A stretch of DNA of 16,132 bases from Actinomycetota bacterium (lineage in GTDB: Bacteria; Actinomycetota; Actinomycetes; Streptosporangiales; Streptosporangiaceae). The position numbers were made by a program, and so were the translations under genes. The DNA is taken from assembly GCA_003140115.1 (NCBI GenBank), contig PLIQ01000360.1, positions 1 to 16,132 on the forward strand. The letters are read 5' to 3'. How positions within the stretch are numbered: position 1 is the first letter of the stretch; each line of letters begins with the position of its first letter. Positions 5,997 through 9,997 of this stretch are shown one piece after another. The notes under the pieces are model-generated. The model was not told where the DNA came from. It worked only from the letters and a program-made list of their open reading frames with translations, and ran no database searches.

Positions 5997-8900
5997 ATGG
6001 GTGTCATGGGCATGAGCCAGATCAGCATCTCCCCGGCCGCAGGATCATACGATGGCTTGGACCCGCGACCGCGCGAGGCGGCGCGGCTAGCCGAGGCCGG
6101 TGTCGTCGCCCGGGGCGGCGAGGGGGAGGACGGGTTGCCCGAAGAACGCTTCCTGGACCGCGAGGAGAGCTGGCTCAGGTTCAACGAACGCGTCCTCGAA
6201 CTGGCCGAAGACGAATCGGTCCCGCTGCTTGAACGGGTACGATTCCTGGCCATCTTCGCGAACAACCTGGACGAGTTCTTCATGGTCCGGGTGGCTGGGC
6301 TGGTGCGCCGCATGGTGGCCGGCTTCCCGGTCGAGGGCCCCGGGGTCCGGCTGCCCCGCCAGGTGCTTGAGAACACCCTGGAGCTGGCGGGAGAGCTGAC
6401 CGTCAGGCACGCCCGGGTGTTCAGCGAGCGGGTCAACGCCGAACTCGCCGAGCACGGGATCGAGATCCTGCGCTGGAAGGAACTGTCCGCCAGCGAGCGG
6501 GACGACCTCAGCGAGCTGTTCCGCCAGCGCATCTACCCGGTGCTCACCCCGCTGGTGGTGGACCCGGCCCACCCGTTTCCGTTCATCTCCGGCCTGTCGC
6601 TCAACCTGGCCGTCATGATCGCCGACCCCAGGACGGACAGCACGGTGTTCGCCCGGGTCAAGGTGCCGCCGCTGCTGCCCAGGTTCCTCGCCGTGGGGCC
6701 GAACCGGTTCGTGCCGATCGAGGACGTCATCGCCGCGCATATGACCGACCTGTTCGGCGGGGCCGAGGTGCTCGAGCAGCACGTGTTCCGCGTGACCCGG
6801 ATCCGGGACCTCGAAGTGGATGAGGACCTCACCGAGAACCTGCTCCAGGCCATGGAACGGGAACTGGTCCGGCGCAGGTTCGAGCCCGCGGTGCGGCTGG
6901 AGGTCGAGGACACGGTGTCGGGCGACGTGCTCGAGCGGCTGATCACCGAGCTCGACATCGACTCGCGCGCGGTGTACCGGGTGCCGAGTCCACTCGACCT
7001 CAGCGGGCTGTCCGCCCTCGCCGACCTGAACATCGGCGAGCTGCGCTACCCCGCGTTCGTCCCGTCCACCCGGGAGGTCCCGCAGGACACCAGCATCTTC
7101 ACCGCCATCGCCGAACGTGACATCCTCGTCCAGCACCCCTACGACTCGTTCGCCGCGTCGGTCGAGCGGCTGATCGAGGAGGCCGCCGAGGACCCGGGCG
7201 TGCTTGCGATCAAGCAGACGCTGTACCGGACCAGCGGGCAGTCGCCGATCGTGGACGCGCTCATCGACGCGGCCGAGGCCGGCAAGCAGGTCGTCGTGGT
7301 GGTGGAGATCAAGGCCCGGTTCGACGAACGGGCCAACATCGCCTGGGCGCGCAAGCTCGAGCAGGCCGGCTGCCACGTCGTCTACGGCTTCGTCGGCCTG
7401 AAGACGCACTGCAAGATGGCGCTGATCGTGCGGCAGGAAGCCGACGGGACGCTCCGGCGGTACTGCCACCTCGGCACCGGTAACTACCATCCGACCACGG
7501 CCCGGCTGTACGAGGACTTCGGCCTGCTCACCGCTGACCCGGCCGTCGGCGAGGACGTCACCGCCCTGTTCAACCACCTCACCGGGTACACCCGCACCCG
7601 TTCGTACCGCAGGCTGCTCGTCGCGCCGGAGCAACTGCGCAACGGCATCGTGAGCCGGATCGACCGGCAGGCTGAACGCAGCCGGGCCGACCTACCCGCC
7701 CGAATCGTCTTCAAGTCCAACGCGCTCGTCGACGAGGTGGTGATCGACGCACTCTACCGGGCCTCCCAGGCCGGAGTCCGCGTCGACCTGTGGATCCGCG
7801 GCATCTGTACGCTGCGGCCGGGCATCGCAGGGCTGTCCGAGAACATCACGGTCCGCAGCGTGCTCGGCCGGTTCCTCGAGCACTCCCGGATCTACGCGTT
7901 CGGCGTGGGGGAGGACGAGGACAGCCAGATCTGGCTCGGCAGCGCCGACATGATGCACCGGAACCTGGACCGCCGGGTGGAACTGCTGGTACAGGTCACC
8001 GACCCCGCCCATCAACGGCGGCTGCGCGGCCTGCTCGACCTCGGCATGGACGACGGCACCTCGTCCTGGTGGCTCAACCAGGACGGCTACTGGACCCGGC
8101 ACAGCCGGGACGAGTCCGGCCATCCGCTGCGGGACATCCAGGAGACCCTGGTCCGGGAACGCCGGGGTCGTTCGGCCGATGAGTCAGCCTTACTACTGGC
8201 CGCCTGGCGAGCGTGGCCGGGGAGCACGGCTGATGAGTCCCCGCCGGTGAGCGAGGCTATCCTCTCGGCGGGTGCCGTGCTGTGGCGCCAGGCTGCCCAT
8301 GGGCTCGAGGTGCTCCTGGTGCACCGGCCCAAGTACGACGACTGGTCGCTGCCTAAGGGCAAACGAGAACCCGGCGAGCACGTGCTTCTCACCGCGGTCC
8401 GCGAGGTGCTCGAGGAGACCAGCGTGCGCGCCGTGCTCGGTCCCCGGCTGCGGACCGCGGAATACCTCGCCCACGGCCGGCCCAAGCAGGTCGACTACTG
8501 GGCCGCGCTCAGCGCTGAGGATGAGGCCGCGGCCAGTCACGAGATCGACGCGGTGTCCTGGCTGCCGCTGCGCCAGGCGCTGGACCGGCTCAGCTATCCC
8601 CATGACGCCGACGTGATCGCCAGCCTGCAGCCGCACCGCACGGTGCCGCTGATTCTGGCCCGGCACGCCTCGGCGGGCCATAAGCGCGACTGGGCGGGCG
8701 AGGACCTGCTGCGCCCCCTGGACGCCGAGGGCGCGCTGGACGCGCTGCTGCTGGGTGACCTGCTGGCCTGCTTCGCTCCCTGCGCCCGGGTGATCAGTTC
8801 GCCCGCGCTGCGGTGCACCGAGAGCGTGCGCCCATACGCCGCGGGGTTCGGGGGATCCGTGGAGGCTGAGGCCGTTCTGGCCGTGCCCGACCGGGCTACC

Positions 8901-9254
8901 GAGTCATTTTTGGACCGAACGGACCGGGTTCACGCTCTCCGGCACCTGTTCCGCGACCTCGTGGCCGACGGTCAGCCCGTGGTCGCCTGCCTGCACCGGG
9001 AGAACCTGCCGCTGGCCCTGGCCGCCGCATGCTCGGTGCTCGACGCGCCGCCGACCGCCGATTTCGACCCGTCGCTGGCCAAGGGCGGCTTCCTTGTGCT
9101 GCACGTCGCCGCGGGCACGCTCGTCGCCCTGGAACGCTACGAGCTCTTAGGCTCGGTTTCCCCGGCCGTAGCGATCTCACCAGCATCAGTGACCCCGTCA
9201 GCATTCTGGATCCCTTCAACCACTGAGGTCTCTCCGCCCACTGGAGCCCCTTGA
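5997..9254 (+). CDS. ppk: Polyphosphate kinase 1 fused to a MutT1-type Nudix/histidine-phosphatase protein
   Basis: One open frame of 1085 residues with three enzyme modules. Residues about 47-725 are PPK1, which polymerises ATP gamma-phosphate into polyphosphate: [20 protein letters not shown] at the start, [20 protein letters not shown], then His471 in GLKTHCKM (the autophosphorylated His, equivalent to E. coli His435) and His629 in [11 protein letters not shown] (equivalent to His592). A 25-30-residue linker follows. Residues about 752-880 are a Nudix domain with its box at 788-810 ([20 protein letters not shown]), where the usual Gly before the final hydrophobic residue is Ser809. Residues about 885-1045 are a histidine-phosphatase domain, with RHA at 889-891 and a second His at 1000. 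The last two domains together match M. tuberculosis MutT1 (Rv2985), whose gene is next to ppk1 (Rv2984). The final 38 residues are low-complexity and antisense to dedA. GGGG lies only 3 bases before ATG 5997; ATG 6006 or 6012 could also start. Confidence 0.92.
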
Positions 9255-9997
9255 GTCCCTGGGGCATTCCCGGCCTCGGAGGTCTCCCCAGCCTCTTTGG
9301 TCTGGGGATCCGGCGAGCCTGCGGCCGGCCGGCCAGCCCGGTGCCGGCGCACCAGCCGCCGGGTGATGTACGCCATGAGCAGTACCACAAGGACGACCAG
9401 CACGTAGAGCGAGTAGCGGTTGACGTTGCTGTAGATCGAGTCGATATGGTCGCCGGCGAAGTACCCGATGCTCACCCAGGTGCCGACCCAGACGCACGCC
9501 CCGAACACGTTGAAGAAGGCGAAGGTGCGCGCGCGCATCTGGGTGATGCCCGCGATGAGCCCGTTGGCCTCGCGCAGGCCGACGATGAACCGGGCGACGA
9601 CTACCACGATGCCGCCGTAGCGGGAGACGACCGCCTCAGCCCGGTCCAGGTGCTTCGGCTTGAGCAGGACGTACTTGCCATAGCGCAGGACTAGCTCCCG
9701 GCCCGCGTACCGGCCGATCAGGTAGCCGATCTCGGCCCCGATGACCGCGGCGGCGACCGCGACGATCCCGACCAGGACGATGTTCAGCCCGCCCCGGCCG
9801 GTACCGGCGAAGATGGCCCCGCCAATCAGCGCGAACTCGCCCGGGATGACCGGGATGCCGATGTTCTCTAGCAACAGCAGCAGGGCGATGGCCAAGTACC
9901 CGTAATGGTCGAGGGGACCTTGCAGGGAGTTGAGGAAGCCGGGCAGCGGCGCGGACCCTGACCCCCCCAAGGGGTTCGCGCTGGCGAGTAGTCCCAT
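9137..9997 (-). CDS. DedA-family (VTT domain) membrane protein
   Basis: A 286-residue inner-membrane protein of the DedA/VTT family, whose members act in membrane homeostasis and, in some cases, undecaprenyl-phosphate or phospholipid flipping. Visible features are the re-entrant-loop motif [11 protein letters not shown] at residues 44-54, [16 protein letters not shown] at about 94-109, and the second conserved motif [17 protein letters not shown] at 135-151, with further membrane spans at about 160-182 and 196-213. After the basic end of the last helix (RRLVRRHR) there is a 65-residue Gly/Glu/Thr-rich tail, longer than usual for the family. The part from about residue 248 is antisense to the end of the polyphosphate-kinase fusion. 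ATG 9997 lies 2 bases after the RNase D stop, so the two are probably translated together. Confidence 0.9.

Follow-up and report, generated by a model that had tools for sequence, protein, structure and literature searches.

The open reading frame at 5997-9254 (+ strand) of the 16,132-nucleotide stretch of actinobacterial DNA analysed here (the window) is, on balance, best read as a young in-frame fusion of ppk1 and mutT1 that arose by read-through of an overlapping gene pair. The join is probably real in the window organism, and fusion of the two genes is very probably recurrent among its relatives. We met no description of this PPK1-MutT1 fusion in the literature searched. By title and abstract, no published PPK1-Nudix or PPK1-MutT1 fusion was recognised in the open-access PubMed Central literature, and a word search found 'polyphosphate kinase' absent from the main text of a review of the Nudix clan (PMC5389931).

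A single frame encodes PPK1 and a MutT1-like protein

In the list of open reading frames, one uninterrupted frame runs on the + strand from an ATG at 5997 to a stop ending at 9254 and encodes 1085 residues. The initial annotation had described such a 1085-codon frame with a complete PPK1 and both catalytic histidines, and these are present as described. All of the Pfam domains fall on this frame (four PPK1 domains, NUDIX and a weak histidine-phosphatase match), and its Pfam and NCBIfam matches lie far above chance level. The features are as follows, with the basis of each in brackets.

5997-8171, + strand: PPK1 part, residues 1-725 (Pfam, NCBIfam, alignment)
7407-7409 and 7881-7883, + strand: codons of the catalytic histidines H471 and H629 (alignment)
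8172-8246, + strand: linker, residues 726-750 (codon-position GC, TTA codon count)
8179-8181, + strand: ATG in the +1 frame, probable relic of a mutT1 start (comparison with L086 and L087, N-terminus of P0178)
8219-8222, + strand: GGGG run where frame 0 of the window and the frame of the split relative P0012 diverge (tail comparison)
8247-9146, + strand: MutT1 part, from GTG to ERYEL (start and end of stand-alone relatives)
8265-8621, + strand: NUDIX domain, with the Nudix box at 8358-8426 (Pfam)
8649-9020, + strand: histidine-phosphatase-like region, end approximate (Pfam, alignment)
8664-8666 and 8994-8996, + strand: codon of the RHA histidine and possible codon of a second histidine (alignment)
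9147-9254, + strand: C-terminal tail beyond ERYEL, with the stop (position antisense to the dedA-like gene, composition)

PPK1 makes polyphosphate from ATP, or catalyzes the reverse reaction, via a phosphohistidine. Pfam divides the PPK1 part into PP_kinase_N (residues 52-157), PP_kinase (167-340), PP_kinase_C_1 (366-533) and PP_kinase_C (540-706), and the NCBIfam model NF003922, 'RNA degradosome polyphosphate kinase', is matched at 1093.9 bits, above its equivalog cut-off of 981. The catalytic histidine pair is present as H471 (KTHCK) and H629 (LEHSR). In an alignment to the E. coli PPK1 chain (1xdo) run through the near-identical P0012, these residues pair with H435 and H592, a numbering also found in an excerpt of PMC6537752. 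The four domains and both catalytic histidines are thus common to the window protein and to PPK1 (NF003922; solved chains 1xdo and 1xdp), but the window protein is longer than 1xdo/1xdp by about 360 C-terminal residues.

Those additional residues include a NUDIX domain (PF00293, residues 757-875) that scores 58.4 bits against a cut-off of 21.1. Of the full Nudix box described in the initial annotation, the acidic residues are kept, but serine replaces the last glycine of the consensus GX5EX7REUXEEXGU; the same serine occurs in P0002, P0004, P0005, P0069 and P0097. The histidine-phosphatase motif that it had also described is there as RHA but not in the canonical RHG form, and the His_Phos_1 match (PF00300, residues 885-959) reaches 21.4 bits, just below the cut-off of 21.7 that the relatives P0005, P0007, P0069 and P0097 pass. 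A candidate second histidine, H1000 (CLHRE), faces glutamine in both aligned MutT1 chains, 9cxx and 5gg5, which we take to be mycobacterial. The NCBIfam MutT1 model NF052459 matches residues 755-1045 over model positions 1-283 of 292, with a score of 184.3 bits that is far under the equivalog cut-off of 475, and the second part is therefore named MutT1-like.

Like MutT1 (NF052459; 9cxx, 5gg5), this part carries a Nudix domain followed by a histidine-phosphatase-like domain, with about 290 residues aligning with 9cxx, and in the window's relatives mutT1 adjoins ppk1 as the MutT1 part does here. In contrast to 9cxx and 5gg5, it has RHA for RHG and a histidine at position 1000, and is fused to PPK1. 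The fusion and the identity of its partners as ppk1 and mutT1, proposed in the initial annotation, both hold. The GTG at 8247 is the counterpart of the start codon in many stand-alone relatives (VSEAIL...), for which ERYEL is the usual end; on reading the window DNA, no clear ribosome-binding site was found at this GTG.

Database matches of the MutT1 part bear on what it might do to the product of its partner. Weak matches to diphosphoinositol polyphosphate phosphohydrolases, together with the description of Ddp1-type Nudix enzymes as polyphosphatases in an excerpt of PMC6537752, would fit a synthase-hydrolase pair whose MutT1 unit shortens or breaks down the polyphosphate of PPK1 in the manner of DIPP/Ddp1 Nudix enzymes. 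We consider this very improbable, as the matches favour MutT1 and Ap4A hydrolases, the latter better than the phosphohydrolases. An excerpt of PMC8064635 calls M. smegmatis MutT1 an Ap4A hydrolase and argues that MutT1 lacks the residues for binding the chain and might be unable to hydrolyse long polyphosphate.

The joined and split forms probably differ by about one base at the junction

The nearest relative, P0012 (a cluster of 52 sequences), has a PPK1 that is 98.5% identical to that of the window, and its genes are split. Its PPK1 tail follows frame 0 of the window up to AWPG and the +1 frame thereafter, and after AWPG the +1 frame of the window runs to a stop within the GTGA at the mutT1 start. 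This comparison, in which the indel is read from the protein sequence of P0012, suggests that the joined and split forms are separated by about one base.

An indel error in the G run would give exactly the joined frame. A sequencing or assembly error would accordingly consist of one G gained or lost in the GGGG run, with ppk1 and mutT1 being in reality separate, GTGA-overlapping genes, and the fit of the P0012 tail to the +1 frame right after the run is what such an error predicts, as is a linker that is not coding-like. Nonetheless, the same-clade fusions P0003, P0002 and P0004 are independent of the window sequence, and P0001 and P0012 differ in the linker beyond the G run, so this stretch does evolve. 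The surrounding genes also speak against it: eleven of the twelve window genes match at least one of four relatives' stretches, each as a single aligned piece, which argues against general frameshift errors in the window. The open frames of the other window genes are weak evidence of quality, because the genes were picked from the open reading frame list. Taken together, we regard an error at this junction as possible but somewhat unlikely, and junction error as the source of this kind of fusion is unlikely given its recurrence.

The neighbourhood itself has the order dxs, FAD oxidoreductase, ppk1, mutT1, dedA-like (reverse), rnd (reverse), DUF3000 (reverse) and hemE. The dxs-to-hemE order recurs in L168, L169 and L170, while dxs and the FAD oxidoreductase have no matches within the L171 stretch compared. 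The MFS gene of the window found no match in any of the four relatives' stretches.

Returning to the young fusion, composition sets the linker apart from the parts that it connects. GC at codon positions 1/2/3 is 0.68/0.72/0.72 in the linker, 0.71/0.41/0.93 in the PPK1 part and 0.80/0.49/0.88 in the MutT1 part; the linker lacks codon periodicity, and an equally flat profile occurs in none of 915 overlapping 75-nt windows taken from within these two parts. The frame contains just two TTA codons, at 8190 in the linker and at 9147 as the first codon of the C-terminal tail; nine window gene pieces totalling 3,726 codons, among them its PPK1 and MutT1 parts, contain none. TTA can restrict translation in streptomycetes, and the joined product might depend on Leu-TTA tRNA. 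Among the MutT1 fusions, linkers vary in length and letters.

At its C-terminus (9132-9254) the fused frame runs into the 3' end of the dedA-like gene, which converges on it (9137-9997, - strand), and GC in the tail is highest at codon position 2. The tail looks like read-through. A functional tail is unlikely, since this stretch is antisense to dedA and P0002 stops at ERYEL. Tails rich in Ser, Ala and Pro are also found in several stand-alone MutT1 relatives. The flat linker, the TTA codons and the antisense tail fit recent read-through. An ancient, optimised fusion in the window is rejected on account of the aperiodic linker, the split nearest relative and the scattered fused tips.

The junction may also retain a trace of an older gene boundary. 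L086 and L087 read ATGAGTGA, in which the ppk1 stop overlaps the mutT1 start, and the window reads ATGAGTCA at 8179. The ATG at 8179 is thus a probable relic, by this comparison, of an ancestral mutT1 start that once overlapped the ppk1 stop. The N-terminus of P0178 is still MSQAY...ADESPP, which is one of the varied starts of stand-alone MutT1 among the relatives.

Split gene pairs are the rule and fusions recur

The initial annotation had named ppk1 (Rv2984) and mutT1 (Rv2985) of M. tuberculosis as separate neighbouring genes, and this arrangement proved to be the rule among the relatives examined, whose two genes frequently adjoin or overlap each other. All 28 related loci, which are the best-scoring ones and not a random sample, are split: the two genes stand in relative frame 1 in 16 loci, in frame with a stop between them in 10 and in frame 2 in two. 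All resolved loci were likewise split in a script comparison of related loci. A possible mutT1 start lies 8 nt inside ppk1 in 15 of the 28 loci, and a 1-nt overlap is present in one. According to an excerpt of PMC10666635, gene pairs of this sort most commonly overlap by 4 or 1 nt; these short overlaps support the coupling of translation and are overrepresented among complex subunits.

Wider searches returned mostly separate genes. Fused PPK1-MutT1/Nudix was found in none of the best 80 genome loci of at least 595, and the PPK1 and MutT1/Nudix genes of many Streptomyces loci are about 1 kb apart. In the related family of G003 (297 sampled genomes, 290 with a match), there was no uninterrupted PPK1-MutT1 among the matches listed, and the best full-length matches among those listed bear at least one stop.

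The search for other full-length fusions proposed with the initial annotation did find them, in P0002-P0005 and P0007, scattered on the tree. Four of these protein clusters, P0002-P0005, are close full-length fusions, 70-80% identical over residues 690-1040. They comprise 4 (P0002), 37 (P0003), 5 (P0004) and 1 (P0005) sequences; the contig that carries P0002 measures up to 537,565 bases. Assembly errors could be among the rare fused tips, P0005 being one sequence. Four of the best 120 PPK1 clusters listed are full-length fusions. The fifth, P0007 from Glycomyces (983 aa), is a full-length PPK1-Nudix-His_Phos fusion whose three-part architecture equals that of the window protein, but it occupies a separate tree position and its Nudix box ends in EETG. 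Among the matches listed for 101 genomes sampled around Glycomyces, no uninterrupted fusion was found; the closest of these matches, in G761, is 85% identical to P0007 over its full length and has one TGA at the ppk1 end.

In P0038 (832 aa), PPK1 is extended by a long tail, and NUDIX is absent from its listed domains. Its tail resembles the mutT1 region in another frame, a further sign of a loose ppk1 end in this clade.

How often the state of the gene pair has changed was assessed on two trees. On the 44-row tree the fused rows need five changes, at least three of them forced, and without Glycomyces (43 close rows) there are four changes between fused and split. On the 87-row tree the MutT1 fusions again need five changes, at least four of them forced by supported branches, and a single clade of all MutT1 fusions is rejected on this ground. 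With shuffled labels the MutT1 fusions gave a mean of 5.7 changes in the 44-row analysis (121 of 500 shuffles as low as observed) and 5.9 in the 87-row analysis (62 of 500), and since these counts are similar to those observed, the MutT1 fusions are not clustered. The change counts cover both gains and losses, such that repeated gains and one gain with repeated losses look alike, and one gain with repeated losses may be compatible with them.

PPK1-Nudix fusions are stable in another actinobacterial family

On the 87-row tree, PPK1-Nudix fusions need five changes (at least three forced), compared with a mean of 8.8 for shuffled labels and none of 500 shuffles as low; these fusions are clustered on the tree. 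Examples of the PPK1-Nudix arrangement are L122, L128 and L152-L154, from other Actinomycetota, and the clusters P0018, P0030, P0031 and P0035. As in the window protein, PPK1 is followed in frame by Nudix in these fusions; unlike the window protein, the four clusters showed no histidine-phosphatase domain in our scan. Across a phylum sample of 396 genomes, 321 of which gave a match, uninterrupted full-length PPK1-Nudix is present in at least five (G679, G601, G342, G628 and G637).

One further actinobacterial family, that of G342, shows a simpler PPK1-Nudix fusion in stable form. Twelve of its 14 genomes have a match across the junction, where all 12 lack a stop; ten are fully open, the open match of G793 is partial, and the PPK1 of G797 is interrupted by a TAG at query residue 433. 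The remaining two, G801 and G794, are uninformative at the junction. The four linkers read from this family resemble that of L152 (RFQxLAxxxxQGAxPDP). Among the matches listed for the other 105 of 119 sampled genomes in the order, there was no uninterrupted match to both parts. The family-wide fusion with similar linkers is seen in L152-L154 and L172-L176, and the genomes are of 1.8-3.1 Mb. In the linkers of five PPK1-Nudix fusions from other genomes, GC at codon position 3 exceeds that at position 2 by 0.16 to 0.33; these five stretches include a few domain-edge residues, and the flat-window control covers the frame of the window alone. An artefact of the whole kind is unlikely given P0002-P0005, P0007 and this family-wide Nudix fusion.

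Proposed origin and function of the fusion

We propose that the mutT1 start codon originally overlapped the ppk1 stop (such as ATGNNTGA). The ppk1 stop would then have been lost, extending the PPK1 tail into a loosely constrained stretch, and mutT1 initiation would have shifted down to the GTG at 8247, overlapping the new ppk1 stop as GTGA. Finally, both genes would have come into the same frame by an indel of one base net, probably within the GGGG at 8219-8222. The resulting protein would be a PPK1 that forms or consumes polyphosphate via phosphohistidine, with a MutT1 unit (a Nudix and a SixA-like domain) attached by a tether of about 50 residues, and the tethered unit would hydrolyse nucleotides such as Ap4A or 8-oxo-GTP. 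The frame, its domains, the relatives, the trees and the aperiodic linker are observed here, and from these we infer the order of the steps, co-translation, the flexibility of the tether, the enzymatic activities and the cellular effect. Because both enzymes were probably already made from one message, the joining would be tolerated and probably changes little. The case shows how an overlapping gene pair may become one gene through about one base.

The initial annotation had also read the fusion as a functional device. The window protein itself argues little for this reading, given its flat linker, split nearest relative and fused tips beside split ones; the recurrent fusions and the one family-wide PPK1-Nudix fusion back it better. 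In the strongest form of this idea, selection would have favoured a bifunctional enzyme in which the MutT1 unit acts on the phosphohistidine of PPK1, or on nucleotides made by PPK1, and thereby tunes synthesis. PPK1 works via phosphohistidine, fusions recur on the tree, PPK1-Nudix is kept in all 12 junction-spanning genomes of the G342 family with similar linkers where read, and another protein, P0008, couples a MutT1-like unit to a polyphosphate-binding CHAD domain. In excerpts of PMC11784022, mycobacterial MutT1 converts 8-oxo-(d)GTP to the diphosphate; the phosphohistidine of NDK is dephosphorylated by the Nudix domain of MutT1 with the aid of its C-terminal domain. However, the window linker shows no sign of constraint and the nearest relative is split, the scanned Nudix fusions lack the phosphatase domain, and an excerpt of PMC8003754 describes no obvious phenotype upon deletion of the Nudix gene of the ppk operon in S. 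lividans. We therefore consider a selected bifunctional enzyme unlikely. More speculative still, and decidedly unlikely in our estimate, is that the overlap of ppk1 with mutT1-type Nudix genes and their repeated fusion reveal a physical partnership, in which Nudix would hydrolyse the PPK1 phosphohistidine as an off-switch and the fusion would be a covalent complex.

The repeated joining of PPK1/MutT1 pairs suggests that both act in one pathway, and a functional link between PPK1 and MutT1/Nudix is likely on this genomic evidence; its chemistry may be hydrolysis of Ap4A, 8-oxo-GTP or phosphohistidine. The recurrent fusions and the family-wide PPK1-Nudix fusion are independent pointers that would tie polyphosphate synthesis directly to nucleotide or phosphohistidine hydrolysis, and the fused proteins are ready material for testing the PPK1-Nudix link.

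A related arrangement is described in excerpts of PMC8003754, where the commonest genes downstream of ppk are PPX/GppA, Nudix, MutT and histidine-phosphatase genes. A single phosphate-controlled transcript of S. lividans spans ppk, a CHAD gene and a Nudix gene. This ppk-pptA(CHAD)-Nudix operon resembles the window in bringing ppk together with a Nudix gene and in its overlapping gene ends, but differs in that the genes are separate, CHAD lies between them and the Nudix protein has 142 residues (PMC8003754).

Other proteins contain comparable units in different settings. P0008 (890 aa) has CHAD, Nudix and histidine-phosphatase domains in one protein, and is thus another MutT1-like unit fused to a polyphosphate-linked domain. 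Similar Nudix domains, however, also have unrelated partners: several of P0006-P0029 combine them with an MFS transporter, an M48 peptidase or a MOSC domain, and in P0006 a MOSC domain is fused together with Nudix and a phosphatase domain.
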